This document shows, piece by piece, positions 434-50,141 of a DNA stretch of 52,233 nt. The stretch is from the NCBI GenBank assembly GCA_947624415.1, contig CANQKH010000010.1, positions 1 through 52,233 on the forward strand, read 5' to 3'. Numbering within the stretch: position 1 is the first letter of the stretch; every line of letters starts with the position of its first letter. The position numbers were made by a program, and so were the translations under genes. A model generated the notes under the pieces. It made no database searches. It had not been told where the DNA came from and was given only the letters and a program-made list of their open reading frames with translations. This DNA is from an uncultured Clostridia bacterium (GTDB lineage: Bacteria > Bacillota > Clostridia > Christensenellales > UBA1242).

Positions 434-462
434 TTGACAAATGGGAAAGGATGGGGTATAAT
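434..462 (+). promoter_or_regulatory. Sigma-A promoter for the first small-protein operon
   Basis: TTGACA (434-439), a 17-bp spacer and TATAAT (457-462) match the consensus exactly. Transcription should start near 469. The TTG that opens the longest reading frame here is the -35 box itself, so it cannot be a translation start on this transcript. Confidence 0.85.
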
Positions 463-730
463 AAAGATAGGTAGAAGACAGTTTAAACGTGAAATAGTTC
501 AAACGCATAGGGAACTAGTAAAACGCTACAAGACAAATCCTAGCTCACAAAACGCATTTGCACTAGGGAAAAATATGGTTTTCTTTGGCAAAAAGGATAA
601 GAGCAAACAGATGGGAATTGAAATCTTGACAAAACTTGCCGAACGACCACTATCCAAGACATTAAATAACTATATGGGTAACAAGATAGATTATCAAGAG
701 GAAAATAAACCATATATAGATTTGGAATAA
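434..730 (+). CDS. Small protein with C-terminal YIDLE tag; start unresolved
   Basis: The frame is open from 434 to the stop at 730 and ends in KPYIDLE, the C-terminal tag shared by eight other proteins in the window. The start is a problem: the TTG at 434 lies in the -35 box. The only in-frame ATG is at 575, preceded by AGGG at a suitable distance, and gives about 51 residues. Codons between 470 and 574 still read like protein (basic, helical). The gene may therefore be a 5'-truncated relic brought under a new promoter, or it may use a non-standard start. It is followed after 11 bases by the next tagged gene with a good AGGAGAGG site. Function unknown. Confidence 0.5.
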   Translation: MTNGKGWGIIKIGRRQFKREIVQTHRELVKRYKTNPSSQNAFALGKNMVFFGKKDKSKQMGIEILTKLAERPLSKTLNNYMGNKIDYQEENKPYIDLE

Positions 731-741
731 AGGAGAGGAAA

Positions 742-1299
742 ATGCTTATTAAAGATGAAGTTTATAAATTTGAGATTTGGTATATTAATGACAAAAAAGA
801 GAAAGATATAAAGACTCTATTCTCGAATAGTGATGATTTAAATGTGCTGGAAGATGTGCCACAGTCGTCTTATTGCATTTTCTCTTATCGTAAGGCTCTT
901 AACCAAAAGCAACAATCTTGGGAACGGGTTGATAATTATTGGATAGGAGATGAAATCACTCTCGAAGAAGCGGAAAAGGAAATAGAGACACTAGAAAAAT
1001 TAGATGTCGATGAAGGCGGCGATGAATATAATCGCGTGATAAGAACACTATATGAACTTAAAGCATTTTGCAAAAAGACAAACACTGACAAAATATTAAT
1101 AAACAATAACATTGATTATGACTGCAGTGCTGCCATTAGTGCGAGAATTAAAATTCTTCCAGCAGGATTCTATGACTTTAAAATTATATCTCCATCGCAA
1201 ATTGTAAACGGCAAGATTTATAGTGGCGGGAATAATATTGTTGAACCAAAATATAAACAGGAAGTAGAAATAGATAAACCATATATTGACCTAGAATAG
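742..1299 (+). CDS. YIxLE-tagged small protein, paralog group A, member 1
   Basis: A 185-residue soluble protein with a strong AAAGGAGAGG ribosome-binding site. It is the first of three tandem paralogs that share an N-terminal MLIKDE.Y.F.IWY block, a DVP..SY segment, GDEITLEEAEKEI near residue 75, a C-terminal block ending KIISPSQIV.G.IY, and the terminal tag KPYIDLE. No signal peptide or membrane segment is visible. I recognise no known family. Spacing of 11 bases to each neighbour indicates one operon driven from 434. The group probably arose by tandem duplication. Confidence 0.8.
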   Translation: MLIKDEVYKFEIWYINDKKEKDIKTLFSNSDDLNVLEDVPQSSYCIFSYRKALNQKQQSWERVDNYWIGDEITLEEAEKEIETLEKLDVDEGGDEYNRVIRTLYELKAFCKKTNTDKILINNNIDYDCSAAISARIKILPAGFYDFKIISPSQIVNGKIYSGGNNIVEPKYKQEVEIDKPYIDLE

Positions 1300-1310
1300 A
1301 GGAGAATAAT

Positions 1311-1856
1311 ATGCTAATTAAAGATGATGTTTATAAATTTACGATTTGGTATATTGGCCAGAAAAAAAATAAGGAAAAAAAGATTATGTATTCGGACAAA
1401 GCAGATATATCTGCATTGGAAGATGTGCCAAAGACAACCTATGTTATTGGGTGCGACTATCTTAATCTTAAAGAACACCAAGTTTGGTGGCAGTCTGTTT
1501 GTGTTTATATTGTAGGAGATGAAATCACTCTTGAAGAAGCGGAAAAGGAGATAGAGGCATTAGAAAAAATTAAAGTTGATAAAAAAGATTCAGCCTCCTG
1601 CGTTACAAGAGAGGCAACCCTAGATTGCCTTAAAACATTTTGTAAAAATGAGAAAAATAATATAAGAGATGAGAATGCAGATAAAATTTTAATAAACAAA
1701 AACATTGATTATGATTGCGATGAGATTAGTGCAAGAATAACAGTAATCCCGTCAAACAATTGTAAAATTATATCTCCATCACAAATTATAAAGGGCAGAA
1801 TTTATCCAAGAGTGTTGGAAAATGATAGTGAAAATTCATATATTGGCTTGGAATAA
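1311..1856 (+). CDS. YIxLE-tagged small protein, paralog group A, member 2
   Basis: 181 residues, clearly homologous to its neighbours at 742 and 1868 along the whole length: MLIKDDVYKF at the start, GDEITLEEAEKEIEALE in the middle, DADKILINKNIDYD-like and KIISPSQI motifs near the end, and the terminal NSYIGLE. It contains a WW pair before the GDEI motif, as do the group B proteins at 10198-12177. Cytosolic by sequence (no hydrophobic segment). Function unknown. Ribosome-binding site AGGAG. Confidence 0.8.
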   Translation: MLIKDDVYKFTIWYIGQKKNKEKKIMYSDKADISALEDVPKTTYVIGCDYLNLKEHQVWWQSVCVYIVGDEITLEEAEKEIEALEKIKVDKKDSASCVTREATLDCLKTFCKNEKNNIRDENADKILINKNIDYDCDEISARITVIPSNNCKIISPSQIIKGRIYPRVLENDSENSYIGLE

Positions 1857-1867
1857 AGGAGAAGGAA

Positions 1868-2410
1868 ATGCTAATTAAAGACGAAGGATATATGTTTGAT
1901 ATCTGGTATTATGACGAGAAAGGAAGAAGTGATTGCTGGCATATGTTTTCTGACAATGCTGACATATACTCGCTTCAAGATGTGCCAAAGACAGCCTTTA
2001 CTATTTATACTAGACATAGCAACCTTAACACCGTTGCAGAATGGTGGGCTGTTGTGGATGAATATCATATAGGAGATAGGATAACTGTCGATGATGCAAA
2101 AAGGGAAATAATAGCATTAAATAATCTTCAAATAGAGGACTTTTCTGACAAAAAACTCAAGGGAAAAACCATAACTGCACTGAAAGCATTTCTCCAAAAC
2201 GCCGAAAATAACACGGAAGATGAGAATGCAGATAAAATTTATATAAATAAAAACATCAAATTGACCCCTAATTCAATTAAAAACAGAATAAAGATTATTC
2301 TGCCATCAAACAATTGTAAAATTATATCTCCATCACAAATTGTAAAGGGCAGAATTTGCCCAAGCGAGAGGGAAAATGATGGTTATAATTCATATATTGG
2401 CTTAGAGTAG
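1868..2410 (+). CDS. YIxLE-tagged small protein, paralog group A, member 3
   Basis: 180 residues, third tandem copy of group A. It retains the MLIKDEGYMFDIWY start, a WW pair, GDRITVDDAKREI, ADKIYINKNI, SNNCKIISPSQIVKG and the terminal NSYIGLE. The middle is the most divergent part (charged, lysine/asparagine-rich), while both ends are conserved. This suggests that the N-terminal fold and the C-terminal tag are under selection. Ribosome-binding site AAGGAGAAGG. Last tagged gene before the two membrane proteins of the operon. Confidence 0.8.
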   Translation: MLIKDEGYMFDIWYYDEKGRSDCWHMFSDNADIYSLQDVPKTAFTIYTRHSNLNTVAEWWAVVDEYHIGDRITVDDAKREIIALNNLQIEDFSDKKLKGKTITALKAFLQNAENNTEDENADKIYINKNIKLTPNSIKNRIKIILPSNNCKIISPSQIVKGRICPSERENDGYNSYIGLE

Positions 2411-2434
2411 AAAGAGATTAATAAGGAGAAAAAA

Positions 2435-3052
2435 ATGAAAGCATTTTTGAAAAATGTTTCAGGAAGATTGATGATTGGCTCAACATATTTGGCGATGGCA
2501 CTCTTTATGGGTGGAGTTTTTTCTGGGGTTGGCACTGGAATCGGCCTAGGTTTTAGCAATATGGAACTTGAAGAATATAACAGAAAAGAGGAAGTTAAAG
2601 TAGCGGTGAAAGACAGGCTTGATGATGAAAGAGAGCAGTTAAATGAAAAACTCCAAAAAGGTGAAATTGACAACAGTGAGTATGCACAAATAAGTGAGGA
2701 GTTGGAGAGCCGCTCATATAAAGATGACATTCGCAAACAAACAATAAATGAACTTTATGGCGATGATGAGCAATATTTGAAAATTTTAAAAAACAATGAA
2801 ATGTTAACCAAAGCCCATATAACGACTGCAATAATTGGCACAACGACATTTTTAGGATTTATACTTGGTAGTTCAACTCACGTTTTTGATAAGTTGGCAG
2901 CGAAGGGGAATTGCTTGATTGACAGCGCCGAAAGTCTAGCAAACAAGAAAAAATGGGAAAATGAAATAGAAAAAGAGAAAAAACAAAAGCAAAAGCAAGA
3001 AAAAGAATTTCAAAAGAAAATTGATGTATATTCTGAGGAAATAGATAAGTAA
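2435..3052 (+). CDS. Two-TM membrane protein with long coiled coil, copy 1
   Basis: 205 residues. A first membrane segment lies at about residues 11-36 (glycine-rich, GGVFSGVGTGIGLGF) and a second at about 128-147 (TTAIIGTTTFLGFILG). Between them is a highly charged helical region of roughly 90 residues, and the C-terminus is a lysine/glutamate coiled coil. The next gene is a paralog with the same plan. The pair closes the tagged-protein operon, so they may anchor or export the tagged proteins; that is inference from position only. No family recognised. Ribosome-binding site AAGGAG. Confidence 0.8.
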   Translation: MKAFLKNVSGRLMIGSTYLAMALFMGGVFSGVGTGIGLGFSNMELEEYNRKEEVKVAVKDRLDDEREQLNEKLQKGEIDNSEYAQISEELESRSYKDDIRKQTINELYGDDEQYLKILKNNEMLTKAHITTAIIGTTTFLGFILGSSTHVFDKLAAKGNCLIDSAESLANKKKWENEIEKEKKQKQKQEKEFQKKIDVYSEEIDK

Positions 3053-3068
3053 AATTTAAGGAGTTAAA

Positions 3069-3686
3069 ATGAAAAGTCTTTTAAAAAATGTAGGTGCGAA
3101 AGTTTTAGTTGGGTCAATAATAGGCGTTCATGTATTAGTCCCAGCAGGTATTATGGCAGGAGTTGGGACATTGGTTGCACAAAGAGCAAGCCAAGGCAAA
3201 CTCGACACTTACTATGACAGCCCAGTTGTTCAAGAGTTGGTTTCGGATGAACTTTTAGGTGAACAATCCGCTCTAACTGAAAGGCTTAAAAGTGGTGAAA
3301 TAGGCGAAGTTGAGTTTGATGTGATTAACATGCATATAACAAGTGAAGCACATAAACAAGAAGTTACCCAAAACATTGCAAACGAGGTTTATGTGGGTGA
3401 TGAGAAGTTTAATGAAGCAAAAACTCAGGCTGACCAATTGACAACTGCCTATTTGGCTTCTTTTTCTACTGCTTTGGGTGCGACTTTTTGTTGTGTGGCC
3501 GGATATGCAGGGCTTTTTGAAAAAATGCTTGAAGTTGCCGAAAAATCAAGTGATGACGCATATGATTTGAAGGATGAAGAAAAACACAGAAAGAAAGAAA
3601 AACAGTTGGAAAAAGAACAAATGCGTCGTGAAAAAGAAATGCTTAAAGAAATAGCAGCGTATGATGAAGAATTGGAGGTGTCTTAG
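3069..3686 (+). CDS. Two-TM membrane protein with long coiled coil, copy 2
   Basis: 205 residues, paralog of the preceding gene, starting 16 bases after its stop. Same layout: MKSLLKNVG start, membrane segment at about residues 11-36, charged helical loop, second membrane segment at about 124-150 (SFSTALGATFCCVAGYAGLF), and an acidic/basic coiled-coil tail. Both copies share short blocks such as LTERLKSGEI versus LNEKLQKGEI. The stop codon lies inside the terminator hairpin. Function unknown. Confidence 0.8.
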   Translation: MKSLLKNVGAKVLVGSIIGVHVLVPAGIMAGVGTLVAQRASQGKLDTYYDSPVVQELVSDELLGEQSALTERLKSGEIGEVEFDVINMHITSEAHKQEVTQNIANEVYVGDEKFNEAKTQADQLTTAYLASFSTALGATFCCVAGYAGLFEKMLEVAEKSSDDAYDLKDEEKHRKKEKQLEKEQMRREKEMLKEIAAYDEELEVS

Positions 3687-3699
3687 ACACCTTTTTTTT
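3676..3699 (+). terminator. Terminator overlapping the stop codon of the operon
   Basis: AGGTGTC (3676-3682), loop TTA, GACACCT (3686-3692), then eight Ts. The TAG stop of the preceding gene lies in the hairpin. Same TTA-loop module as at 185 and 309. Confidence 0.85.
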
Positions 3700-3764
3700 A
3701 CTTCGTTTAATAATATTCATTTACTATGATTAGTTGTATTGAAAAGAGAAGTGAAAATTCAAAT

Positions 3765-4016
3765 TTTTAAATATAATTTTATTCGTTAATGATGAAAACT
3801 AAGTTTTCTAAGAGAGTGGGGAATATATGTTATTAATTATCGTCTAATTCGATACTGATGAAAACTAAGTTTTCTAAGAGAGTGAGGAATATATGTTATT
3901 AATTATCGTCTAATTCGATACTGATGAAAACTAAGTTTTCTAAGAGAGTGAGGAATATATGTTATTAATTATCGTCTAATTCGATACTGATGAAAACTAA
4001 GTTTTCTAAGAGAGTG
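3765..4016. repeat. Tandem hairpin array, four units, 66-bp period
   Basis: The palindrome GAAAACTAAGTTTTC occurs at 3794, 3860, 3926 and 3992, exactly 66 bp apart. Flanking sequence (TAAGAGAGTG.GGAATATATG and TTATCGTCTAATTCGATACTGAT) is nearly identical between units. The intervening sequence is conserved rather than unique, so this is not a CRISPR. No gene is seen between 3700 and 4021. The last unit ends six bases before a -35 box. Confidence 0.85.
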
Positions 4017-4021
4017 GGCTA

Positions 4022-4050
4022 TTGACAAATAGGATTTATGATGATATAAT
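4022..4050 (+). promoter_or_regulatory. Sigma-A promoter directly after the hairpin array
   Basis: TTGACA (4022-4027), 17-bp spacer, TATAAT (4045-4050). It is followed by an AGGAGG ribosome-binding site and the ATG at 4074, giving a leader of only about 17 bases. Confidence 0.85.
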
Positions 4051-4073
4051 AAAAATAGAATAGGAGGAAGAAA

Positions 4074-4676
4074 ATGAAGTGTGTGTTTTTGATTACAGGT
4101 AAACCTTTTGCATTTTCAACATTAAAGGTGGCGCAAAAGTTTAGGGAAGAATATGCACCGCTAAATGAAAGTAAATTGGGTGCAAAGATGCATTTGAGCA
4201 TTCCAGAAAGCATATACAAAATAGTGCCAACATTTGATAAGGTTGATAGGGTTTATGATAAAATCGAAGATTGTTTGCAAGACTTTCCTCAAGAAGTTGT
4301 TGCCAAGTATGACAACGAATGCAAAAAGATAAAGTCATCGATTTCTTTAAAAACACCTCTCGTTTTTGATAATCATCTCAAAGCACATGAACGCATGGTG
4401 CTAAAAACAAGCAAGGTAAGTTATGATATATTAAAAACTATAGCGACAAAAGGGCGGGAGAACTTAAAAAATATCAATATTGACAATCCAAACGCAATTG
4501 TAACAAGTATTCAATTAAATGGAAGAGGAAAATTCACTCCTATTGCAGCAGTTACAGTCAAGCAATTTAGGGAAATAGAAAAGGCACTGGCACAAACTGA
4601 GGAAAAACTTGAAGCATTAAAACAAGAATACAATATGACTGATGTCAGACAAGACGATGAAAATCAAATGGAATAA
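4074..4676 (+). CDS. Small protein, paralog group C, without the terminal tag
   Basis: 200 residues. It aligns with the genes at 4882, 8799 and 9487: an N-terminal block with an aromatic/FSTLKVAQKFREEYAPL-type segment, a VYDKIEDCLQDFP segment matching VYSSLEEYEKSNPQ, and a C-terminal helix reading VKQFREIEKALAQTEEKLEALKQEY. Unlike the two later members it ends in ENQME and lacks the YIxLE tag. No membrane segment. It may form a unit with the 4882 gene, since a single promoter lies ahead and no terminator separates them. Function unknown. Confidence 0.75.
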   Translation: MKCVFLITGKPFAFSTLKVAQKFREEYAPLNESKLGAKMHLSIPESIYKIVPTFDKVDRVYDKIEDCLQDFPQEVVAKYDNECKKIKSSISLKTPLVFDNHLKAHERMVLKTSKVSYDILKTIATKGRENLKNINIDNPNAIVTSIQLNGRGKFTPIAAVTVKQFREIEKALAQTEEKLEALKQEYNMTDVRQDDENQME

Positions 4677-4881
4677 AAACATATTAAATTTGCTTAAAAT
4701 ACATATACATTAAAGTGTTTAAACAAGCATAAAATAACTTCAAAATGTTTTATAAAAATATGAAAATTTATTGCCAAAAATCAATAATATATGTTGAAAT
4801 GTGGAAAAAATGAGTAATTTAAGCCAAAAAACACAAATTTTTAACAAATTATTAAAAATTTTTGCAAATTAGGAGGATAAA

Positions 4882-5601
4882 ATGGAAATTGTTTACAGAG
4901 CCCAGGGTGTAGCATTTTCAAGCAGAGAAGTGGCAAGCGATTACATAGACATTTATGCCCCAATAGAACTTACCAAACAAGTGTTATTTCCAGAATCGGG
5001 GATAAGAAAGGAAGGAGAGAGAGTTTACTCTTCCCTCGAGGAGTATGAAAAATCAAATCCACAAGCCTGCATTCAAAGAATGAGAACAGAACGCTGTATA
5101 TTCAAGAATGAGGAGAGCGATTCAGTTGCATTACCTTTTTACATGGGTTATAGTGTGGATGACACACCTTTTATGACTGATAGATTAACAATGCAAGAGG
5201 CATATGACCTTACCCGTTGTGCAGAAAAACAAATTGAAGAGGGCAATGTAGACACGACCAACAAAAACTTAAAACTAACGGTCGTTGTGCCAAACGGAGA
5301 TGTATACACTTCATCTTACAATTTAAAAGTTGGCGAGTATGAGCAATTACGTGCGATAGTTGACAACAATCTTACAAAGGTTGCAAAAATAAATGAAAAA
5401 ATACAACAGGCAATGGAAAAATATGGTGTAAAGGATGCAGAACTTGACAATGAAAATGCAAAATATCAAGAATTTCAAGAAAAATATGTTAAAAAAATAG
5501 AAAAATGGCATGATTTACATTTACACGGAACATTGAAAGACCAAGAAAATGAAACTCTTGCCGAAATGTTGGAAAACTATTCAAATCATGAAAAAGAATA
5601 A
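4882..5601 (+). CDS. Small protein, paralog group C, extended C-terminus, no tag
   Basis: 239 residues, longest group C member. Shared features: VYRAQGVAFSSREVASDYIDIYAP at the N-terminus (compare FNTRKEAEIYNERFCKG at 8799), a SLEEYEKSNPQACIQRMRTERC block near residues 50-75 (compare CDEYEKENPQKNLARLCRDKA), a helix around residue 110, then a conserved predicted coil VGEYEQLRAIVDNNLTKVAK. An extra charged tail of about 40 residues replaces the YIxLE tag. The 205-bp gap before it is very AT-rich with no clear promoter. Ribosome-binding site AGGAGG. Function unknown. Confidence 0.75.
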   Translation: MEIVYRAQGVAFSSREVASDYIDIYAPIELTKQVLFPESGIRKEGERVYSSLEEYEKSNPQACIQRMRTERCIFKNEESDSVALPFYMGYSVDDTPFMTDRLTMQEAYDLTRCAEKQIEEGNVDTTNKNLKLTVVVPNGDVYTSSYNLKVGEYEQLRAIVDNNLTKVAKINEKIQQAMEKYGVKDAELDNENAKYQEFQEKYVKKIEKWHDLHLHGTLKDQENETLAEMLENYSNHEKE

Positions 5602-5606
5602 ACTAA

Positions 5607-5649
5607 AAACCCCTATTGCGAGAAGTTTGTCTCAGCTAAGGGGTTTTTT
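5607..5649 (+). terminator. Intrinsic terminator
   Basis: AAACCCCT (5607-5614) pairs with AGGGGTTT (5639-5646), followed by Ts. It lies just after the stop at 5601. Confidence 0.75.
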
Positions 5650-5832
5650 AATTGTCAAACAAGCCATTTCCCCGAGCCTTAATATTTAAAAAGTGTGTAT
5701 AAATACAAAAGAATACCTCTACGTGGGAAAATAAATTTTATGTAAAAATTTTTGATTTTAAAGGTGATTTTTAAATTTTTAAAGATTAGGGGAAAAAGAT
5801 AATTTATAAAACTTCTAGTAAAAAAACAAAAA

Positions 5833-5857
5833 AATAGCGATTTTTCGCTATTTTTTC
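5833..5857 (-). terminator. Bidirectional hairpin ending the minus-strand operon
   Basis: AATAGCGA/TCGCTATT with a TTT loop, flanked by A-runs on the left and T-runs on the right, so it can act on both strands. It sits about 40 bases downstream of the zinc-ribbon gene. Confidence 0.7.
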
Positions 5858-5896
5858 ATAAAATTTTGCAAATTTTCTTTAAATTTTTGATTTTTA

Positions 5897-6136
5897 TTAT
5901 AAATTTTGAATTTTATCTTGTATTAATCTCAATGTTGCTGGGTCTTTAACGGAAAGGGTTAACTCACTTAGCAATTTTAATTTTTCAGAAACAATTTGCT
6001 CGTGGCGTAAGTTTTCGCCCTCTTCGGTTAGAGGATTTCCGCAAACAGGACAAAAATTTTGATTTTCAACATCTACTTTTTTGTCGCAGTAAGCACAATA
6101 ATCTCCGTCAATCTTTGTTTTTATGCCACCTATCAT
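5897..6136 (-). CDS. Small zinc-ribbon protein
   Basis: 79 residues. Two CxxC knuckles (CAYC at about residue 14 and CPVC at about residue 29) form a rubredoxin-type zinc ribbon. A helical tail of about 45 residues follows. Its ATG overlaps the TGA of the upstream gene (ATGA), so translation is probably coupled to the degenerate phosphoesterase. It may act as a protein- or nucleic-acid-binding adaptor; specific function unknown. Confidence 0.75.
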   Translation of the reverse strand: MIGGIKTKIDGDYCAYCDKKVDVENQNFCPVCGNPLTEEGENLRHEQIVSEKLKLLSELTLSVKDPATLRLIQDKIQNL

Positions 6137-7383
6137 AATTCATCCTCCTCTTCAATTACTACCGTTTGTTTGTCGTTCTTTACAGGTTTCTTTTGGTCGG
6201 CAGGGATTTTGCTCTCACGTTCTGCGTGTTTTTTATATCTTTTTGTTAATATTTTCTCAACGTTTTCCTTTTGAAGGTCATCAAATTGTTTGTTGATTGA
6301 GTCGAGAAGCATGATTTTTGCATAAGTGTTTTCTGCATTGATTTTTGCAACTTCTTTTATAATATCAAAGTTAAGGTCTGTTCCTGGTGTTCTTCCAAAG
6401 TTTTTAAATTCCTGGCAAATTTTGTATGCAGGTTCTCCCACATAGTCATGTCCACGAACATTTCCGCGGTCTGGGTTTGGAACAACAAAAACACGAATCA
6501 TTCCATTATCGGTGTTTGCCGCACTTACATTTCTGTTTGAGGTTAAACGGTTTGGATAATCTCTATATCCGCCAACTGAAACAAAGTAGTAAGGTTTTTT
6601 AAGCATATGGTTGCCGTGGTCGGCGACAAGGGCGGCTCTTCTTTCAATGAAGAGTTTGTTGTAGTGGCTTGTGAAGTAGAAGTCTTTGCCATTTATTTTT
6701 TCTTGCAAACCTTCTGTTTTTCTTGCTATTGTTGCAGTTGTGTTTGCGACTAGGAAACCATGGTCAAAAAGCATATACACAGGTTGGGATGTATTGTTTG
6801 TCATACTATTATTGAAAATAAAGTCAACCTCTGCCATTTGTCCGCAATATCTTTCCCCAATTCCCAGTGCATTCATAAGATTGGCGGTTAAGTTGACGCC
6901 ATCTTTTTCAAAAATTTTAATTTCTTCTGTTCCGTCATATGCACCGACAATTTTGTCTTTTACAGGAGCAAGCAGTTGTGCCAGAAGATTTACCTGGTCT
7001 TCATATGAAGGGGAATATGCATCGCGATATTTTACACTTCCGCCTGGGAAATAGAACAAATCTCCGCCAAGCATAATTTGTGCTTCTGGATTTCTTGCAA
7101 GTTCCTCAATATGTGCTTTAAATTTTTGTATTCTAAAAGGTTTGTCTTCCTTTGCTGTTTTATTGTGAGCGCCAGTTAATCCAACCATAATGTTTGAAAG
7201 AACGCACATATCGATTTGTTTAATGTCGGGTGAAAGTTTAACTATAATATGTTTTGACCTTGGAAGTTTGTTTGCGTTGTTTTTATAGCCAGAAATCGCA
7301 TTTTCAAGATTTTCAAGAGTGTAAGGTTCTTGTTCGATTTCTTCGCTGTTTTCATCTATTGTAAATTCATTTTTATTTGCCAT
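6133..7383 (-). CDS. Degenerate calcineurin-like phosphoesterase homolog
   Basis: 416 residues. It aligns by motif order with the intact phosphoesterase encoded just upstream. The metal-binding motifs are altered: the D-x-H block reads SNIM, the GD motif remains as GGD, GNHE is replaced by AYDG, the single H remains in DHG, and GHTH is replaced by SHYN. The shared NTDN signature late in both proteins supports homology. It is therefore probably a catalytically dead partner or scaffold. Its start overlaps the upstream stop (TAATG), behind an AGAGGAG site. The C-terminal 40 residues are charged and likely disordered. Confidence 0.65.
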   Translation of the reverse strand: MANKNEFTIDENSEEIEQEPYTLENLENAISGYKNNANKLPRSKHIIVKLSPDIKQIDMCVLSNIMVGLTGAHNKTAKEDKPFRIQKFKAHIEELARNPEAQIMLGGDLFYFPGGSVKYRDAYSPSYEDQVNLLAQLLAPVKDKIVGAYDGTEEIKIFEKDGVNLTANLMNALGIGERYCGQMAEVDFIFNNSMTNNTSQPVYMLFDHGFLVANTTATIARKTEGLQEKINGKDFYFTSHYNKLFIERRAALVADHGNHMLKKPYYFVSVGGYRDYPNRLTSNRNVSAANTDNGMIRVFVVPNPDRGNVRGHDYVGEPAYKICQEFKNFGRTPGTDLNFDIIKEVAKINAENTYAKIMLLDSINKQFDDLQKENVEKILTKRYKKHAERESKIPADQKKPVKNDKQTVVIEEEDEL

Positions 7384-8537
7384 TAGATATCTCCTCTTTC
7401 ATCTTCGTAACCATCTTCAGGCTCTTCTTTCTTTTGTATAGGTGGTTTTACCTTGCCTGACGACATATATCCCACTTTTTTAACTGCCTTTTTTGCAACG
7501 GTGTCAATAGCATCGCCTGTAAGATTTTCAGGCAATTTTACGTCGTATGAGGCAAGGTCCATAAGTTCCAATCTATCAAGGCTTATTGTGTCGATTATAT
7601 ATTTATATGGTAAAACAGTTTCGTCATTAAGGGTTTTATCAAGAGTGTCAAGGTTGCGTTCTGCCCTAACTGAAAGGATAAAGTTATCAGTGTTTGGAGG
7701 TGGATAACCATAATCTGTTGAATAAGAATTCATCTCCTCTGCGGCAGGAACGTTTACAGTTGTTACATTATGTTTAACTGCTTGATTTTTGTCTTGAACA
7801 ACGGTGTCGTCAAGGGAGTAAAGATTTTTGTGGGTATGGCCTTGTATAACCATATCATATTGACCAAAGTTTTTGAGTTTGTTAAACATTGCGTCAATAA
7901 CTTTTCCAGGGTTTCCTCCAGTTTCATTTCCATGTCGAACAAGCACTCTAAAATTTGAGTATCCACGCTTGCTGTATGGGTTTTGAACTTTGAAGACCAC
8001 TTGTGCCATATATCTTGAATATTGATCTAATATTCCAAGTGTAGCCATTGGTGTAACAAGTGAGTCAAGTCCACTATCTCTTGCTCTTGCACCACTTTCA
8101 TGGTTACCGCTTGTTGAACAAACAATTTTGTTTTTGATAAGAGGGTCGCTCAAAAGAGTGTGTATAACTTTTTGTTCATTCATTGGCGACAGGTCATTTT
8201 CAAGAGGGCTTGACTTACCCAAATTGTTTGCATTGTTCATAAGGTCGCCATTAAGAATAATATAAAGGTTAGGAATATGTTTAACTTCCTGCAAATATCT
8301 TATAACCTTATCAATATTGCACCCCGGTGAACCAATATGCAAGTCGTTTAGGACAAGCAGTAAAATTTCCCTGTTGTGAAGTGAGTCCACAACGGTGGTT
8401 TTGATAGGAGCGAATCCGTCAGAACTAATTTGCTTAATATAACTCTCGATTCGTCCGTCTTCTTTTGCGACCTTGGAAATGTTTGGCACCTTTTTAAGTC
8501 TAGCATCAAGGTCATTTGATTTTTCTTCGATTCCCAT
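7383..8537 (-). CDS. Calcineurin-like metallophosphoesterase
   Basis: 384 residues with all five motifs of the family: NDLHIGS (about residue 64), NGDL (about 95), SGNHES (about 145), RHGNE (about 200) and GHTHK (about 235). These bind a di-metal centre that hydrolyses phosphoesters. The substrate cannot be read from sequence. It is the first gene of a three-gene operon with translationally coupled neighbours. The promoter lies 22 bases upstream and the ribosome-binding site is AAAGGA. No signal peptide, so cytosolic. Confidence 0.85.
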   Translation of the reverse strand: MGIEEKSNDLDARLKKVPNISKVAKEDGRIESYIKQISSDGFAPIKTTVVDSLHNREILLLVLNDLHIGSPGCNIDKVIRYLQEVKHIPNLYIILNGDLMNNANNLGKSSPLENDLSPMNEQKVIHTLLSDPLIKNKIVCSTSGNHESGARARDSGLDSLVTPMATLGILDQYSRYMAQVVFKVQNPYSKRGYSNFRVLVRHGNETGGNPGKVIDAMFNKLKNFGQYDMVIQGHTHKNLYSLDDTVVQDKNQAVKHNVTTVNVPAAEEMNSYSTDYGYPPPNTDNFILSVRAERNLDTLDKTLNDETVLPYKYIIDTISLDRLELMDLASYDVKLPENLTGDAIDTVAKKAVKKVGYMSSGKVKPPIQKKEEPEDGYEDERGDI

Positions 8538-8558
8538 AGCACATCCTTTTACAGCATT

Positions 8559-8587
8559 ATTGTAACATCTAAAATTGGATTTGTCAA
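8559..8587 (-). promoter_or_regulatory. Sigma-A promoter of the phosphoesterase operon
   Basis: On the minus strand TTGACA (8587-8582), 17-bp spacer, TACAAT (8564-8559). Correctly placed for the gene starting at 8537. Confidence 0.85.
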
Positions 8588-8655
8588 CATTTATTTCTTG
8601 AAAACTACTACTTACTTTTTTAAAAATATAACTTGTCCTCTTGTTTAATGCACCC

Positions 8656-8684
8656 TTGACATTTTTATAATTATATGTTATAGT
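8656..8684 (+). promoter_or_regulatory. Promoter for the second tagged-protein cluster
   Basis: TTGACA (8656-8661), 17-bp spacer, TATAGT (8679-8684). A further TATAAT at 8705-8710 with a poor -35 could be a second start. The leader to the ATG at 8799 is about 105 bases and carries no obvious strong hairpin. Confidence 0.7.
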
Positions 8685-8798
8685 TTAATATATAAAAATT
8701 ATGCTATAATAAATGTAATTCTTTGATAGATGCATTCTTGACAACAAAAATTCTTACAAGAGAGATGTCAAACAAAAAGACCTATAAAGGAGATGAAG

Positions 8799-9473
8799 AT
8801 GGAGAAAGAGGAGCAGGCGAAAAATAAAAAAATTTATGGTTTTCAAGATGACGAGGCAAAAGTTATCTTCAATACAAGAAAGGAAGCGGAAATATACAAC
8901 GAACGCTTCTGCAAGGGCATGAAAATAATACAGGAATATAATTTTTATGAAAATTGCGATGAATATGAAAAAGAAAATCCACAAAAAAATCTTGCAAGAT
9001 TATGCAGAGATAAGGCAATTTTGGTCAATTCAATAGAATATCCATTTGTTTTAACACGAGTGCACGTTGACAGAGGCTGGGAAAAATTAAGCCATGGAAG
9101 TTCATTTTCCACTCTAAAAGAATTATTGACGCTTGCAAATAAGCAACTAAAAGAATTATTTCAATATCCACAAAATGTAAATGATAGTGAAATGTTAAAA
9201 ATACAAATAAAAGAATATATAGTAAAAATAACGGCGGAGCAGTGCAATCAATTATACAACATTTTCCAAGACATAAGCCAAAAAGTAAATGTAATAAACA
9301 AGGAGATTGCAGATGTCATAATTGGTGGAAAAATTCAAGACGAGGAATATCAAACTATATGCAAGATGGCAATGTTAAACGAAGAAAGTCGAAGCACAGA
9401 GGAAAAGACATATGAGTTTGAAATGCTCAATAAAGAGGCATATATTGACAATAATTACTTGATGCTTGACTAA
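8799..9473 (+). CDS. YIxLE-type tagged small protein, paralog group C
   Basis: 224 residues from the ATG at 8799. An in-frame ATG at 8793 is less likely because the AAAGGAG site touches it, while 8799 has a spacing of about 7. Group C features: KKIYGFQDDEAKV at the start, FNTRKEAEIYNERF, CDEYEKENPQKNLARLCRDKAIL, a helix around residue 105, a helical ITAEQCNQLYNIFQDISQKV segment, then TYEFEMLNKEAY and the terminal NNYLMLD, a variant of the tag. Cytosolic. Function unknown. Confidence 0.75.
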   Translation: MEKEEQAKNKKIYGFQDDEAKVIFNTRKEAEIYNERFCKGMKIIQEYNFYENCDEYEKENPQKNLARLCRDKAILVNSIEYPFVLTRVHVDRGWEKLSHGSSFSTLKELLTLANKQLKELFQYPQNVNDSEMLKIQIKEYIVKITAEQCNQLYNIFQDISQKVNVINKEIADVIIGGKIQDEEYQTICKMAMLNEESRSTEEKTYEFEMLNKEAYIDNNYLMLD

Positions 9474-9486
9474 AAAGGAGAGTAAA

Positions 9487-10128
9487 ATGAGCAACGGCAG
9501 AAAGATTTACGGTTTTGAAGATGTAAAAGATATGGCATTTTCAAAAAGAGAGGAGGCAGAAAAATACAGCAAAATTTACTACAATGGCGTGCTGAACATA
9601 AAGGAAATTAGCGTGTTTGACAGTGTTGACGATTTTGAAAAGGATATGCCAAACGCACATCTTAAAAGATTATGCAAAGAAAAGGGCAAACTGCTAACAT
9701 CTGCACTACCTTATCCACTAACAATAATTGATAAAAATGGCACAACAACTCGAAGAAATTTATCATTTACATTTGCAAAAGAAGTCTTGGAGAAAGTAGA
9801 TGCAAAATTGAGAGAAGACTGGACAACTTCACAAGAGGTTGACACCGAGATTATTGAAAAAGTAAAGATTGATGACCTTATAGTCTTGGCATCGATTGAG
9901 GAATTTAGGTTTGTATATGATTACTTTACCACCATTTGCCGAAAAGTCAACGATATAAATAATCAAATTAAAGGTATACTTAAAGACGGAAAAGTTGAAA
10001 AAGGAAAATATTGGACATATCAACAAGTTGGGGCGATACCAGATGAGTATCAAAATGAAAATCCATTAACTTATGAATTTGAAATGCTTGACAAAAATGC
10101 AGTTAAAGATTATATTTTGCTTGAATAA
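9487..10128 (+). CDS. YIxLE-tagged small protein, paralog group C
   Basis: 213 residues from the ATG at 9487, which follows AAAAGGAGAG. The longer frame would open on a TTG inside the previous gene. It matches the 8799 protein throughout: RKIYGFED, FSKREEAEKYSK, VDDFEKDMPNAHLKRLCKEKGKL, SIEEFRFVYDYFTTI, TYEFEMLDKNA, ending KDYILLE. The EFEMLxKxA block shared by both genes sits about a dozen residues before the tag. Function unknown. Confidence 0.75.
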   Translation: MSNGRKIYGFEDVKDMAFSKREEAEKYSKIYYNGVLNIKEISVFDSVDDFEKDMPNAHLKRLCKEKGKLLTSALPYPLTIIDKNGTTTRRNLSFTFAKEVLEKVDAKLREDWTTSQEVDTEIIEKVKIDDLIVLASIEEFRFVYDYFTTICRKVNDINNQIKGILKDGKVEKGKYWTYQQVGAIPDEYQNENPLTYEFEMLDKNAVKDYILLE

Positions 10129-10197
10129 GAGGTTGGGCAAGGGAAAATTAAATTAAAATAAATTTGAATTTTGTTTGTAAAATTAGAGGAGGAAAAT

Positions 10198-10800
10198 ATG
10201 AAGGAATTTTATAAAATAACATTAATCACTGATGAAAGGGATGATCAAACTTTAAACTCAACTTTTATGATATCAGCCGACCACATTAAAAAAGTTGAGT
10301 ATGTGCTGAGAGATTATGATGTCAAATATGAAAAAAGTGAACCTATAGAAGATGATAAACGCCCAAGAGATGAAGGTTTAAAGCAGATGGTTACATATTT
10401 AGATGAGCAAAGCAAACATTTCATAAAAAGGCAATGGTGGAAAGGAACACAGATTGAACGACTTTACAATGAAAAACGGAACGCAAAAGCAGCCCTATTT
10501 GGCAAGAGGCAAGCCAGTCAGGCTTTTCATATATTGGACGCTTGTCATCCTCAAACACAAAGGCAAGCAAATAAGAAATATAACAGAATAACTATTGAAG
10601 ATGAGAAGGGTTACAAAACAAGATTGAAAGTTCCAAAATCTGCAAGCCGCGAATTATTGTGTTTAAGGCTGGGGAATGAAGAAAAATTTACTCAAGTAAG
10701 TTTAGCAGAAATAGATCTGGAAGAATATCTTGACACACAAAATGGCAGTGAAATTGTTTCAAATAATTATGATGACAAATCATATATAGACCTCGAATAA
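10198..10800 (+). CDS. YIxLE-tagged small protein, paralog group B, member 1
   Basis: 200 residues from the ATG at 10198, directly after GAGGAGG; a longer frame from 10171 lacks a site. Group B signature: FYKITL at the start, a VEYVLRDYDVKYEKSE segment, and RQWWKGTQIERLYNEK (WW-x-G-T-x-I-x-x-x-Y) near residue 85. Ends KSYIDLE. The central lysine/arginine-rich region is not conserved in the two siblings. No membrane segment. Function unknown. Confidence 0.75.
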   Translation: MKEFYKITLITDERDDQTLNSTFMISADHIKKVEYVLRDYDVKYEKSEPIEDDKRPRDEGLKQMVTYLDEQSKHFIKRQWWKGTQIERLYNEKRNAKAALFGKRQASQAFHILDACHPQTQRQANKKYNRITIEDEKGYKTRLKVPKSASRELLCLRLGNEEKFTQVSLAEIDLEEYLDTQNGSEIVSNNYDDKSYIDLE

Positions 10801-10818
10801 AAAGCATAAGGAGAAGAC

Positions 10819-11475
10819 ATGGCAATTGTTAAGGGTTATAACTCAATTAGGTTTAAAAAGAGGCCAGACGAAAAAGAATATGCGTTTGAAGTTTGTGTGC
10901 CACATCTAATATATGATGATATAGTTAAAATTTTAAAACATGAGAATTTTACAACTCGCTGGATGAATGAGGAAAAAGATTTTGATGATAATTTTGAATT
11001 ATCAAATCTTCAGGAACATCTTACTCGTCAAGAAGGTTATTATCAATATTTTTCTCAATGGTGGGAGGGAACTGCTGTCGAGAAAAAGTTTGTCAAAGCA
11101 TCTGGCTCAAAAATGAACTTGTCTGATGCGTTAAGCATTTACTATGGCATTCAATCTGGTGGCGGTTTTCATATAGAAATTGAAAAATCTTACGCCGAAG
11201 AATTTGACGCAGTTTACAATATAACCATTGATAATTATGATAAAAAAATAAAGTTAATATTAGCAGATATTGAAGTTGCCCAATTTATGCAAAAATATGA
11301 TTATGTTAAAACGCGAGCCAAAGAAATTGAAGAGGAAATCAAAAGTTTGGAAGAGTTTATGAATAATCGTAATGAAAAATCGAAGGAAACGACTGCAAAG
11401 AATAGTCAAACAAACTCAAATGCTGGACTTGAAAAAGACCCAACTGCCGACAATTCATATATAACTCTTGAATAA
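10819..11475 (+). CDS. YIxLE-tagged small protein, paralog group B, member 2
   Basis: 218 residues with an AAGGAGAAG site. Group B motifs: IVKILKHENFTTRWMNE matching the VEEILKDRDHSTIYIKE of the next gene, SQWWEGTAVEKKF near residue 90, and a helical C-terminal third. The last 35 residues are asparagine/lysine/threonine-rich and probably disordered, which would display the terminal NSYITLE. Function unknown. Confidence 0.75.
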   Translation: MAIVKGYNSIRFKKRPDEKEYAFEVCVPHLIYDDIVKILKHENFTTRWMNEEKDFDDNFELSNLQEHLTRQEGYYQYFSQWWEGTAVEKKFVKASGSKMNLSDALSIYYGIQSGGGFHIEIEKSYAEEFDAVYNITIDNYDKKIKLILADIEVAQFMQKYDYVKTRAKEIEEEIKSLEEFMNNRNEKSKETTAKNSQTNSNAGLEKDPTADNSYITLE

Positions 11476-11535
11476 ATTAGAGTTTGACAGTCAAAATACA
11501 ACAATTTAAACTTAGAGTTTTATATAAGGAGAAAA

Positions 11536-12177
11536 ATGGAAGGATTTTATTTGATTAAATTAAAATCGAGGAGCGATTTGTTAAATTATGATATAGGAAT
11601 AAGGTTGACCCATTCTCTTATAAATGAAGTGGAAGAAATATTAAAAGATAGGGACCACTCAACAATATATATAAAAGAGAATCATGACTTTGAGGAAAGT
11701 GATGAAATTTCATATTTATACAATCGTTTGTCGCAAGAGAGGGGTTATTTTAGTTCATCCTGGTGGACGTCAACAGCAATTGCCCGTAAATATTGTGCTA
11801 AAATTGGTGCATCCTATATGCCAAAAGAAGAGGCGGAGAGGACTATGAAATTTATTGACAGCGAAAGATTTAATAATTCCCAAAGTGATTCCTTTTTGTT
11901 TATGCTTAAAGATTTAAGGGTAAGGGCAAGTGAAAGTTCATTTCCTTTACTTATAACGCGGAGCGAAGCCAATAATTTTAAAATTGCACAGGCAAGAGCG
12001 ACAGAAACAATAAAATCAATTGATGACATCCTTGCAAACCTTAGAGACCTTGCCAAAAGAAATAAAATAAACATAAAAAAAGACAATCACCTACTTATAA
12101 AATCAAAGGAGAATGAAATTGAGCAAGAAGAAAACGAAGCCCTTCAAAATCCTAATTCATATATAGATTTGGATTAA
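11536..12177 (+). CDS. YIxLE-tagged small protein, paralog group B, member 3
   Basis: 213 residues with an AAGGAG site. Contains FYLIKLKSR, VEEILKDRDHSTIYIKENH, SSWWTSTAIARKY near residue 80, ASYMPKEEAER, a helical segment, and a charged tail ending NSYIDLD. WW followed by a short EEAE helix also occurs in group A (WW..V..YIVGDEITLEEAEKEI), so groups A and B may be distant relatives. Last tagged protein of the cluster, 74 bases before the M60 peptidase. Function unknown. Confidence 0.75.
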   Translation: MEGFYLIKLKSRSDLLNYDIGIRLTHSLINEVEEILKDRDHSTIYIKENHDFEESDEISYLYNRLSQERGYFSSSWWTSTAIARKYCAKIGASYMPKEEAERTMKFIDSERFNNSQSDSFLFMLKDLRVRASESSFPLLITRSEANNFKIAQARATETIKSIDDILANLRDLAKRNKINIKKDNHLLIKSKENEIEQEENEALQNPNSYIDLD

Positions 12178-18397: not shown

Positions 18398-20326
18398 ATG
18401 AGTGATTTAACAAATTTACAAAAACATATATTTACGGCAACTTTGCCAGGAGATGATGTGTCATCGCCAACTTCACAAATGAGGGATAAGATTTTTATTG
18501 ACACAGATGTTTCTCTTAAAAGAAAAAATATGTCTTCAAAAATTAAGGCGACTGATTTTGCCATTGCCTGTGGTGCTACTGTTGATGAAAACCAAAACGC
18601 ATCTTTTGTTTTTAGACATTTGAGCGATGATCAAGAAAATGGTAACGGTGGGCAAAACTCTGATGTAAAAGTTATCAATCCACATATTTGCTTAAAGAAT
18701 AGTGCACTATCAAATGAATATCCTTTTGGAGTTTATAGGATTACTCAAAAAGCAAAAGATGACAGAACAATTACTTTTGCAGATTGGGTTTGGCCTCAAA
18801 GAATTTACAGCGATACATTCAAACTTGACAGCCTAATGCAAAATGGCGACCTTGAAAAAACGGGCAGAAGTTTTCCTTATTCATTCTCAGACTCAGGAGA
18901 ACCAATTTGTTGTGATGAGTATGCAGGTTTGGTTGACGGGAAAATGAAAAAGTTTGTTCGATTTACTCCAAAAGCCAATCCACAATCAACTTTCTCAGAT
19001 GGACAGAAGGTTGAGGCAAAACCATACTGGTTTGAGGTTACACCTATTGTTTGGAGAATTGAAAACGGAAAGGATTTAATTGAAAACATCTCTACAAGAA
19101 ATTATTCAAACATTCCAAATAAAACACCTATTGAAATTATCCCTGTTTCGGGAATGCTTGTAGGCTTGCCTTTTAAAGAAAACGAATATGTAAATTCAAA
19201 TGTAAGGAAATTTATAAATAGTTATGATGGATATGCCGACAATGGCTTTCTTGATTATTCTTATGACCCAACAAAAATAAGAAGAAATTCAAAATTCACA
19301 GTTAAGGTTGACGACCAACCTATGACAATTGATGAACAACTTAAATTTTACATCGACAATAATTTCAGCATTATGCTTCATGGTTTAAGCGGTATTGGTA
19401 AGAGCAGGCGTGTAAAAGATATTGACCCTCAATGCGTTCAAATCCAACTCCGTGATGGAATGTTGCCTGAAGAGGTTATTGGAAAAACTGCATTTAATGA
19501 CGAAACAAAAGAAAGTTCTTGGATTGAACCAACTTGGTATAAAAGAATTAAAGAGGTTTGCGAAAACGATCCAAAACACAACCACGTTTTGTTTATAGAT
19601 GAAATAACAAACGTTCGCCCATACGAGCAAAGTTTAGTTTATCACATAGTTCTTGAGCGTTCAATAGACGGAAACCAAGGAAAATTACCAGACAACTGCG
19701 TTGTTATTGCTGCCGGAAACAGCCCAAAAGAATCGGAAGTTGCATCACCTATGCCAGAACCTCTTTACAGAAGATTTAACGCACATATTGAACTTCCTCT
19801 TGACCTTAAATCTTGGCTGGAATGGGGAAGCGTAGTAGTTGACGATAAACCAAGAATTCATCCTCTTGTCTCTTCATTCGTTGCTGCTTACTGCGACAAG
19901 GTGTTCTACACAAAATATGATAAAGAAAAATCTGAATTTGCTATTGACCCTCGTGGCTGGGAACAAATTTCAAACATTATTTACAATAATAACGGGGTTA
20001 TACGTGAAGCATTGATTGCAAATAAGATTGGGGCTCAAAACGCAAAATCCTTCTTGGCATTTGCAAAAATCCCACTTATTACAATTGATGATATTATGAA
20101 CGACAATGTTTCTCCTTCAGATGTTCCAACAGATATAAATTCAAGATATGCACTCATGCTTTCTTTTAGAGTTGCTACTATGGAAGAAGTGGGAAAAGTT
20201 CGTGAGTTCGTTGGCAAGTGTCTGGGCAAAGAACAACTCGCGACATTTGACAGCCTCTGGGCAGACACCGATGAAAAGGCTATTTTCTTGGATAGACTTG
20301 ACAATCAACAGGAAAATGATTATTAA
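18398..20326 (+). CDS. MoxR-like AAA+ ATPase with novel N-terminal domain, copy 1
   Basis: 642 residues. The AAA+ module spans about 300-520: Walker A GLSGIGKS near residue 329, Walker B LFIDEIT near 398, sensor-1 AAGN, and arginine finger RRF. The 300-residue N-terminus contains FGVYRIT..TITFADWVWPQ and YWFEVTPIVWRIEN, blocks also present in the paralog at 39880 and reminiscent of a domain in gut Firmicutes surface proteins. MoxR ATPases usually remodel a partner with a VWA domain, but no VWA gene is nearby. It is a single-gene unit with its own promoter and terminator. Target unknown. Confidence 0.8.
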   Translation: MSDLTNLQKHIFTATLPGDDVSSPTSQMRDKIFIDTDVSLKRKNMSSKIKATDFAIACGATVDENQNASFVFRHLSDDQENGNGGQNSDVKVINPHICLKNSALSNEYPFGVYRITQKAKDDRTITFADWVWPQRIYSDTFKLDSLMQNGDLEKTGRSFPYSFSDSGEPICCDEYAGLVDGKMKKFVRFTPKANPQSTFSDGQKVEAKPYWFEVTPIVWRIENGKDLIENISTRNYSNIPNKTPIEIIPVSGMLVGLPFKENEYVNSNVRKFINSYDGYADNGFLDYSYDPTKIRRNSKFTVKVDDQPMTIDEQLKFYIDNNFSIMLHGLSGIGKSRRVKDIDPQCVQIQLRDGMLPEEVIGKTAFNDETKESSWIEPTWYKRIKEVCENDPKHNHVLFIDEITNVRPYEQSLVYHIVLERSIDGNQGKLPDNCVVIAAGNSPKESEVASPMPEPLYRRFNAHIELPLDLKSWLEWGSVVVDDKPRIHPLVSSFVAAYCDKVFYTKYDKEKSEFAIDPRGWEQISNIIYNNNGVIREALIANKIGAQNAKSFLAFAKIPLITIDDIMNDNVSPSDVPTDINSRYALMLSFRVATMEEVGKVREFVGKCLGKEQLATFDSLWADTDEKAIFLDRLDNQQENDY

Positions 20327-47413: not shown

Positions 47414-47703
47414 AAATAAATGATGATATAGAAGAATATGATGTTGGTTCATTGCAGGCTATATTTCAAACGGTGGATGAAATATTAAAGAAGTGTTCAA
47501 GCCTTGAACAGAACGCTTTAATTATGGAGAAAAATATTGGTGTTGCCGAAAGAGATTTCACTTCAGAAAACTTGCTTCGTGCAAAGGAGATAATAAAAAA
47601 ATATATTCAAACACTTGATAATGCCAATGTCGAATTAAAGGAACTTGCTTCGTCGGTAAATGATTTTGCCGAAAAATTAAGAAGAGCATGGCGTGAGTGG
47701 TAA
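47410..47703 (+). CDS. WXG100-partner-like helical protein, copy 1
   Basis: 97 residues, almost entirely two long helices: IFQTVDEILKKCSSLEQNALIME and LLRAKEIIKKYIQTLDNANVELKELASSVNDFAEKLRRA, with a loop RDFTSENL between. The paralog at 47977 has KDFNSQNF at the same place. Helical-hairpin shape, length and position beside a WXD protein suggest one half of a WXG100-type heterodimer. Overlaps the ATPase stop (ATGA). Confidence 0.7.
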   Translation: MKINDDIEEYDVGSLQAIFQTVDEILKKCSSLEQNALIMEKNIGVAERDFTSENLLRAKEIIKKYIQTLDNANVELKELASSVNDFAEKLRRAWREW

Positions 47704-47714
47704 AGGAGGAAGGT

Positions 47715-47975
47715 ATGTCAGCAAATAGCGGAAAAGCAAACAAACAGGTTGTAAAAAATCTTGTAGAAGATATAAGATATTTTGCAGATATTGTAAAGGA
47801 AGAGGCGACAAAAATGATGAACGAGACTTTGCAATTAGGTGGGAGTTGGAATGACACCCAATATCAACATTTTGAGAATTTTATGAGCGACCTTACAGAA
47901 AATCTTGTTAAAGACACAGCGGTTTTGTATGATTGTGCAGACAAGATTGAAGAACGTGAATTAAAGGAAATATAA
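47715..47975 (+). CDS. WXG100-like protein with GGSWND turn, copy 1
   Basis: 86 residues from the ATG at 47715 behind AAAGGAGGAAGG; a longer frame from 47697 has no site. Two helices are joined by LGGSWNDTQYQHFENFM, which resembles the WXG turn of ESAT-6/WXG100 proteins (W-x-D here, followed by Q..FE.F). These are typical substrates or chaperones of type VII secretion. The paralog at 48271 has GGDWDDDVGASFIAY at the same place. Confidence 0.75.
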   Translation: MSANSGKANKQVVKNLVEDIRYFADIVKEEATKMMNETLQLGGSWNDTQYQHFENFMSDLTENLVKDTAVLYDCADKIEERELKEI

Positions 47976-47976
47976 T

Positions 47977-48264
47977 ATGAAATTTAATGATATGGCATTA
48001 AAATTAGATGCCCTTTCGTCCAGTCGGCATAACCTTAGCAGGTCAATAAATGAAATTGAGATGTTTGCAAATCAACTTAAATCAAACATGCATATGGTTT
48101 CAAAGGATTTCAACTCTCAAAATTTTTTGCAGGCAGAAGAGGTTGTAAACAGGGTTGTAGAAAAACTTAGACAGGCTGAGGAAAAATTGCAGAAAGGCCG
48201 TGTATATTTAAATAATGTTGAAGAAAAAGCCGAAATTTATATGAAATGTAAGTATTATGGGTAG
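47977..48264 (+). CDS. WXG100-partner-like helical protein, copy 2
   Basis: 95 residues, paralog of the 47410 product: first helix LDALSSSRHNLSRSINEIEMFANQL, loop SKDFNSQNF, second helix LQAEEVVNRVVEKLRQAEEKL. Starts one base after the preceding stop. The duplicated order partner-WXD-partner-WXD implies that the pair was duplicated as a unit, giving two different heterodimers. Confidence 0.7.
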   Translation: MKFNDMALKLDALSSSRHNLSRSINEIEMFANQLKSNMHMVSKDFNSQNFLQAEEVVNRVVEKLRQAEEKLQKGRVYLNNVEEKAEIYMKCKYYG

Positions 48265-48270
48265 GTCAAT

Positions 48271-50083: not shown

Positions 50084-50141
50084 ATTGCTAAAAATTTTAG
50101 CCTTGCGAAGTTGAAAAAGTTCTAAAAATTAGGAGAAAAAA

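Follow-up and report, generated by a model that had tools for sequence, protein, structure and literature searches.

Contig 10 of an uncultured Clostridia bacterium (GenBank CANQKH010000010.1, assembly GCA_947624415.1; here G000), whose 52,233 bases are the entire window analyzed, carries nine small open reading frames (ORFs) whose products end in the same five-residue pattern, Y-[IL]-x-L-[ED], a type of ending that we term tag 1. The G000 assembly comprises 1,445,820 bases in 42 contigs and is 90.4% complete and 5.2% contaminated; the organism belongs to the family UBA1242, order Christensenellales, which one report describes as gut bacteria with small genomes that are likely symbionts or parasites (PMC12306168). 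All nine ORFs named in an initial sequence-only reading of the window exist, with the tails it had claimed at their C-terminal ends: KPYIDLE (434..730 and, in group A, 742..1299), NSYIGLE (group A, 1311..1856 and 1868..2410), NNYLMLD (group C, 8793..9473), KDYILLE (group C, 9466..10128), KSYIDLE (group B, 10171..10800), NSYITLE (group B, 10819..11475) and NSYIDLD (group B, 11536..12177). All lie on the forward strand, as do the untagged group C-like genes, the two-transmembrane genes, and the ATPase genes with their downstream ORFs described below. Start positions are uncertain, as the TTG codons at 434, 9466, and 10171 are choices of the ORF lister, and 9487 and 10198 are the likely starts of the latter two genes. 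The ORF at 434 probably represents the remaining 3' part of a longer gene, as it begins near the contig end with its tail intact and its relative in G071, another genome of the genus, is 287 amino acids (aa) long. Comparison of the nine proteins by phmmer with their tails removed placed the bodies in four families (1 + 3 + 2 + 3), which agrees with the earlier proposal of at least three groups and argues against a single recently duplicated family. No Pfam match above cut-off was obtained for any of the nine.

To assess enrichment beyond the window, we scanned the whole G000 genome with a DNA pattern for Y-[ILMF]-x-[LF]-[ED]-stop, which also admits TGG as a 'stop', and found 55 matches versus 13 for a reversed control; a stricter pattern, requiring RRY before the Tyr codon and Glu as the last residue, gave 18 matches versus 0. 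At the protein level, Y..L[ED] ends were found on 31 of 634 mechanically called ORFs in 628 kb of G000, where the rate inside proteins predicts 0.31 and tail shuffling 0.40; many of these stretches were picked for pattern matches, so the density is biased, while the null was drawn from the identical ORFs. The ending is thus far more frequent at C-termini than expected, contrary to one outcome that the sequence-only reading had named as refuting its proposal. A larger set (794 kb, 772 ORFs), searched with a slightly different expression, likewise yielded 31 tagged ORFs for 0.3-0.5 expected. Thirteen tagged ORFs form a second large array on contig 7 (11197-25710). The tagged counts are incomplete, because close variants (for example YDDLE, YEELE, and YTDLE-like endings that differ in other residues) escape the regular expressions.

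We next considered the distribution of the tag in 112 genomes of the genus. With the strict pattern, matches versus control were 18 to 0 in G000 and 11 to 1 in G071, and elsewhere there were at most three matches. This pattern gave a single match in a third genome, G127, despite 17 tags in 230 kb there, so the count of three tag-1 genomes among 112 is a lower bound. In that 230 kb of G127, [YF]-[ILTVF]-x-[LI]-[ED] ends terminate 17 of 260 ORFs, for 0.17 expected, and in 123 kb of G071, from stretches chosen largely for matches, 32 of 134 ORFs are tagged. Two further scans, neither of whose samples contained G071 or G127, singled out G000: in 61 genomes it had 19 matches versus 1 control, followed by G009 with 7 versus 1, and with the tightest pattern in 396 genomes of the order it had 11, the others having at most two. 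G009 gave 3 versus 1 with the strict pattern and possibly holds a weaker or variant tag. The bodies are also narrowly distributed. Group A was found in two of 81 relatives, G000 and G071, a set that did not include G127, and group C in five of the 112 genomes (G000, G071, G127, G142 and, weakly, G141).

The 80 tagged proteins collected from the three genomes (31 from G000, 32 from G071, and 17 from G127) formed 18 phmmer clusters (E<1e-3) once their last 15 residues had been removed. Two pairs of clusters were merged by hhalign (86.7% and 94.9%), leaving about 16 families, and no further pair among all 153 exceeded 50%. The group A cluster is the largest, with 37 of the 80 proteins, and the window's nine proteins occupy four clusters. 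Because the set was selected with [YF][ILTVF].[LI][ED]$, its acidic end is fixed by the selection; within it, residue -5 is Tyr in 77 proteins and Phe in three, Ile, Leu, or Thr is found at -4, and Leu stands at -2 in 78. In the 63 tags from G000 and G071, each of the six Leu codons occurs at -2 (31 CTT, 15 TTG, 13 TTA, 2 CTA, 1 CTC, and 1 CTG), which argues for selection on the peptide over copying of DNA, and by eye no common element was seen in the DNA downstream of the tags in these two genomes. None of these 63 proteins contains a transmembrane (TM)-like window (19-residue window above 1.6). AlphaFold2 models of one group A protein and of the group B protein at 10819..11475, built from alignments of 20 and 9 rows, respectively, were confident for the body of the group A protein, whose residues 148-164 fall below a predicted local distance difference test (pLDDT) score of 50; in the group B protein, residues 193-214 and 216-218 fall below that value. 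The predicted folds differ, group A being beta-rich and group B alpha/beta, and neither is a helical hairpin; searches of the PDB with both models returned no clear relative of either fold. The models therefore place the tag on a tail that is predicted to be disordered behind two different folds.

To determine whether the tag is retained between species, orthologs were paired across the three genomes as reciprocal best hits among all ORFs read, using bodies from which the last 20 residues had been removed. This revealed 30 pairs with both members tagged, two with one tagged, and 226 with neither; tags or tagged families had guided part of the choice of stretches in G071 and G127, a selection that favours tagged pairs. 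Both one-tagged pairs involve a single G127 protein with the ending AYDDLE. In the three genome pairs, the last five residues of tagged pairs are 79, 64, and 69% identical and the preceding ten 34, 20, and 20%, as compared with 50, 54, and 34% and 44, 50, and 30%, respectively, for untagged pairs. Some paralogs lack the tag: the window itself holds two untagged group C-like genes, at 4074..4676, whose G071 and G127 relatives are likewise untagged, and at 4882..5601, whose G071 relative is likewise untagged; in G142, the group C relatives that were read lack the tag, and a group A relative in G127 (L146:13988-14491) ends PENMIRV. These untagged group C-like genes and the untagged group A relative indicate that the tag is separable from the body.

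Downstream of the group A genes lie two two-TM proteins, at 2435..3052 (tail YSEEIDK) and 3069..3686 (tail YDEELEVS), which the sequence-only reading had listed as candidate readers of the tag. Their family is expanded in G000, G071, G127, and a fourth genome, G067 (16, 21, 22, and 18 matches, respectively), versus 0 to 4 matches in other genomes of the genus. Many two-TM proteins of the tag-1 genomes end Y-x-E-[EKQ]-[ILV], and such ends were found on 12, 14, and 16 ORFs of G000, G071, and G127, for 0.66, 0.33, and 0.21 expected. G067 has no tag 1 in 323 kb; there, two-TM and soluble proteins both end in ELP[SD]I-x-[DE]-x-YY-x-D or a close variant. A regular expression for this tail matched 26 of 326 ORFs, one of them spuriously, leaving 12 proteins with TM windows and 13 soluble ones, and a narrower version gave 21 matches in the 323 kb versus 0.07 expected. 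With their tails removed, the 25 proteins form nine phmmer clusters, although some of the soluble clusters may be distant relatives. Next to a NifU-like gene, a two-TM array occurs in synteny, its tails being mostly of the Y-x-E-E type in G000, G071, and G127 and mostly of the ELP type in G067; the NifU-like proteins of the first three are 87-89% mutually identical and 71-76% identical to that of G067, in a tree whose supports are mixed (1.00, 0.95, 0.20, and 0.08). As different tails occur at a syntenic array, we read the tails as lineage-specific and replaceable, and we infer that both tags belong to a single phenomenon. In 18 other genomes of the genus, the 20 stretches read around two-TM genes held few copies and, by eye, no common tail. 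The two-TM proteins are unlikely readers, since they carry tails of their own and in G067 have theirs in common with soluble proteins; they are more likely clients. As a separate observation, the arrays carrying the acidic ELP[SD]I..YY ending adjoin a long low-complexity gene and two-TM genes on G067 contigs 8 and 1 (L152 and L159, respectively).

Tag 1 is thus kept across species on different families and absent from some paralogs, and a relative carries another tail. Its enrichment, the roughly 16 families, the agreement between orthologs, the predicted disordered tail, the untagged paralogs, and the other tail in G067 all support the suggestion of a short terminal signal carried by unrelated bodies; that the tag is a separable terminal element differing by lineage is well supported. 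It would act like a sorting or docking signal, and we consider it probable that it is an address tag of some kind, read in trans. In the mechanism that we propose, the last ~ten residues ([YF]-x-x-[KDN]-[SND]-Y-[IL]-x-L-[ED]-COOH) would form a trans-acting address tag whose flexible tail recruits many small, fast-diversifying cytosolic proteins to one common receptor. The most likely receptor would be an EssC-like ATPase/WXG-like module at 44546-48944, with the tag working like the type VII YxxxD/E export signal and the tagged proteins being export substrates or substrate carriers. This full sequence of steps, from address tag through receptor to export, we hold somewhat short of an even chance.

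The candidate receptor begins with a 955-aa FtsK/SpoIIIE ATPase (44546..47413), followed by five small ORFs (47410..48944), two with a W-[ND]-D motif and WXG100-like below the Pfam cut-off, and by two zinc-ribbon/Sel1 proteins (48965..51200). The closest solved chains to the ATPase are 4nh0, which is named FtsK/SpoIIIE, EccC5, and YukB, and the small ORF at 47697-47975 matches PF06013 weakly (E=0.0071, 17 bits, cut-off 27.3). In G127, where the ATPase is 82.5% identical to that of G000 over its whole length, relatives of three of the five small ORFs follow it, as do zinc-ribbon proteins. A three-row profile of the ATPase, which includes the G000 and G071 members, scored 1488 bits in G000, 1715 in G071, and 1208 in G127, versus at most 106 in six other genomes of the genus, and a search with the single protein gave 2147 bits in G000, 125.5 in G071, and at most 57 in 47 others. 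Across both searches, which had three of these other genomes in common, every one of the three tag-1 genomes had the ATPase, as against 0 of 50 others in the genus. Among the readers proposed by the sequence-only reading, this FtsK-type protein was the only one whose presence tracked the tag in the genomes tested, and this co-occurrence together with the YxxxD/E spacing makes it the leading candidate; that it reads the tag, and that the outcome would be export, are tentative proposals.

Two papers offer points of comparison in type VII secretion (PMC9600955, PMC12558993): EsxB has its YxxxD/E motif in a C-terminus that is unstructured, where it is believed to favour multimerisation of EccC; FxxxD of Lap1 is required for effector secretion; and in Streptococcus suis the D1 ATPase of EssC is bound by MapC2/EIC-CR fragments that carry YxxxD. 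Tag 1 and the signals of both branches (T7SSa EsxB, EspB, and PE; T7SSb Lap1 and MapC2/EIC-CR) have an aromatic and an acidic residue with three residues between them; as in EsxB the motif is C-terminal and flexible, and the tag-1 genomes hold an FtsK/EssC-type ATPase and WXG-like genes. The earlier claim that the tag differs from YxxxD/E therefore fails for the spacing, which is exactly YxxxE, and stands in three respects: the tag is strictly terminal, its Leu is nearly invariant, and the bodies are not hairpins. Unlike the type VII signal, tag 1 is also spread over about 16 families.

Several results weigh against the EssC-like module as receptor and against export, in addition to the selection of stretches that favours tagged ortholog pairs. 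Tag 1 always forms the last five residues and has Leu at -2, neither of which holds for the known YxxxD/E motif, and neither modelled body is a helical hairpin, unlike the WXG100, PE, and LXG-like substrates of type VII systems. As the hairpin body is missing from the modelled proteins and the other features are not decisive, membership of the tag system in type VII secretion is not established. The ATPase matches the TIGR03928 EssC model with E=3e-28 and 97.9 bits, far below the cut-off of 778.4, and has no TM window; its G071 counterpart is only 27% identical, longer, and located near a gene that looks integrase-like by eye. G067 lacks an EssC-like ATPase and yet has a comparable tag system, if both tags are one phenomenon, while G077, which belongs to a different family of the order, encodes a similar ATPase but shows no excess of the tag (13 versus 13). 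The three tag-1 genomes may form one clade, so the co-occurrence of ATPase and tag may be one event. Finally, inspection by eye of the surroundings of the ATPase in G000, G071, G127, and G077, which was not a search of the genomes, revealed none of EssA, EssB, EsaA, and EsaB. The G071 ATPase lies in an island on contig 27 (L085:254-11853) that also encodes, as named by eye, proteins of integrase-like, JAB-like, ThiF/E1-like, and WXG-like type and one that joins a WXG-like N-terminus to a different C-terminal domain, and several small WXG-like ORFs accompany the ATPase on G077 contig 47 (L086:4744-10207).

An alternative that we regard as a serious contender, although its chances also fall below even, is an intracellular docking tag through which the proteins would assemble, without being exported, on a cytosolic or membrane scaffold; this might be a compartment, a spore layer, or a complex of a MoxR-like AAA+ protein. 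The window encodes two MoxR-like AAA+ ATPases, at 18398..20326 (AAA_3/AAA_5) and 39880..41961, and a MoxR-like gene adjoins a tagged gene in G127, lies two genes away in G071, and is about 6 kb away in G000. One tagged family (G000 C12:24699-25178; DUF6273-like below the cut-off) resembles the MoxR N-terminal region (E=9e-10), and the common tail of two-TM and soluble proteins in G067 would also fit docking. However, MoxR-like genes are also found in members of the genus where no tagged array was seen, none was found by motif in 323 kb of G067, and no shell or scaffold protein was recognized, although none was searched for. Encapsulins have few cargo types per genome, as against tens of cargo candidates here. 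Their cargo peptides, short C-terminal peptides that direct cargo, provide a precedent for docking (PMC7925596).

The short terminal peptide on an exposed, disordered tail would also suit a C-terminal degron read by a protease or adaptor, and genes with an HExxH motif adjoin a tagged gene at three of eight places found by motif. Yet the acidic Y..LE ends are unlike hydrophobic degrons, and a constitutive degron on dozens of arrayed paralogs would be costly, making this explanation improbable; no transfer-messenger RNA (tmRNA) gene was found in the 41 stretches scanned, hence there was no tmRNA tag for comparison. We give still less credence to the idea that the tagged proteins are delivered into animal cells, where the tail would imitate a peptide motif of the host, for instance a phosphotyrosine or LIR-like site: Y-[IL]-[DE]-L is similar to ligands of the SH2 and LIR kinds, but such motifs need neither a fixed free C-terminus nor an acidic last residue, a delivery system is not established, and a literature search found no paper joining SHP2, SH2 domain, and YIDL. 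The least credible explanation is that there is no signal, the tails having spread by 3'-end duplication or gene conversion or belonging to one homologous C-terminal domain. Paralog arrays do exist, and the group A cluster accounts for 37 of the 80 tagged proteins; this possibility is largely refuted by the about 16 families, the differing codons, the lack of a common downstream DNA element by eye, the divergence of the residues preceding the tag, and the predicted disorder of the tail.

Signals of the PEP-CTERM type contain a hydrophobic segment and are processed on exported proteins, whereas tag 1 is short, acidic, and soluble, on proteins without TM-like windows. In PEP-CTERM/exosortase, GlyGly-CTERM/rhombosortase, and MYXO-CTERM/myxosortase, one C-terminal signal on many proteins of a genome likewise meets its reader many-to-one in a sporadically distributed system (PMC1569441, PMC3237569, PMC11980579). 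A soluble five-residue tail on about 16 families in three small genomes, together with another common tail in a relative, would be a new means of defining a set of proteins by address and not by fold, and it offers a handle on dozens of unannotated proteins, as those with the same tail likely have the same destination. To our knowledge, bacterial C-terminal sorting tags are either hydrophobic and processed or confined to few cargo types. We consider it rather unlikely that the genus, one of small-genome bacteria, has an addressing system of its own, with a free-C-terminal code in each lineage (YIDLE-like or ELPSIDDEYYRD-like) and code and reader replaced together. If so, the reader of one species would ignore the proteins of another, and the lineage codes would mark large, fast-evolving sets of cytosolic and, in one lineage, also membrane proteins. 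The shared tail also poses the testable question of which protein reads the tail and whether the reader changes with it.

The neighbourhoods of the tagged genes contain further genes. Between the group A and group C arrays of the window, 5897-8537 holds two adjoining genes, of which 7383-8537 is phosphoesterase-like by eye, and a 79-aa zinc-ribbon-like protein, in an order that is kept beside group C on G071 contig 54. Downstream of group B, 12252-14810 encodes an M60-like metallopeptidase (enhancin family) with a weak F5/8 type C match and a hydrophobic C-terminal end; its G071 relative lies between a MoxR-like gene and a tagged array. The N-terminal region of the MoxR-like protein at 18398-20326 resembles a tagged DUF6273-like protein (L040:9625-10560; E=9e-10). 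Five HExxH proteins of 540-610 aa, zincin-like by motif, were noted (L042:3849-7238, L040:10581-12215, L094:2126-3811, L128:3839-7455, and L178:13203-14849), three of them directly beside an isolated tagged gene and two ending FLE or YLE. Untagged proteins with collagen-like repeats (GATGAT, GPTGAT) share stretches with isolated tagged genes at L035:9866-10921 and L042:9077-9976.

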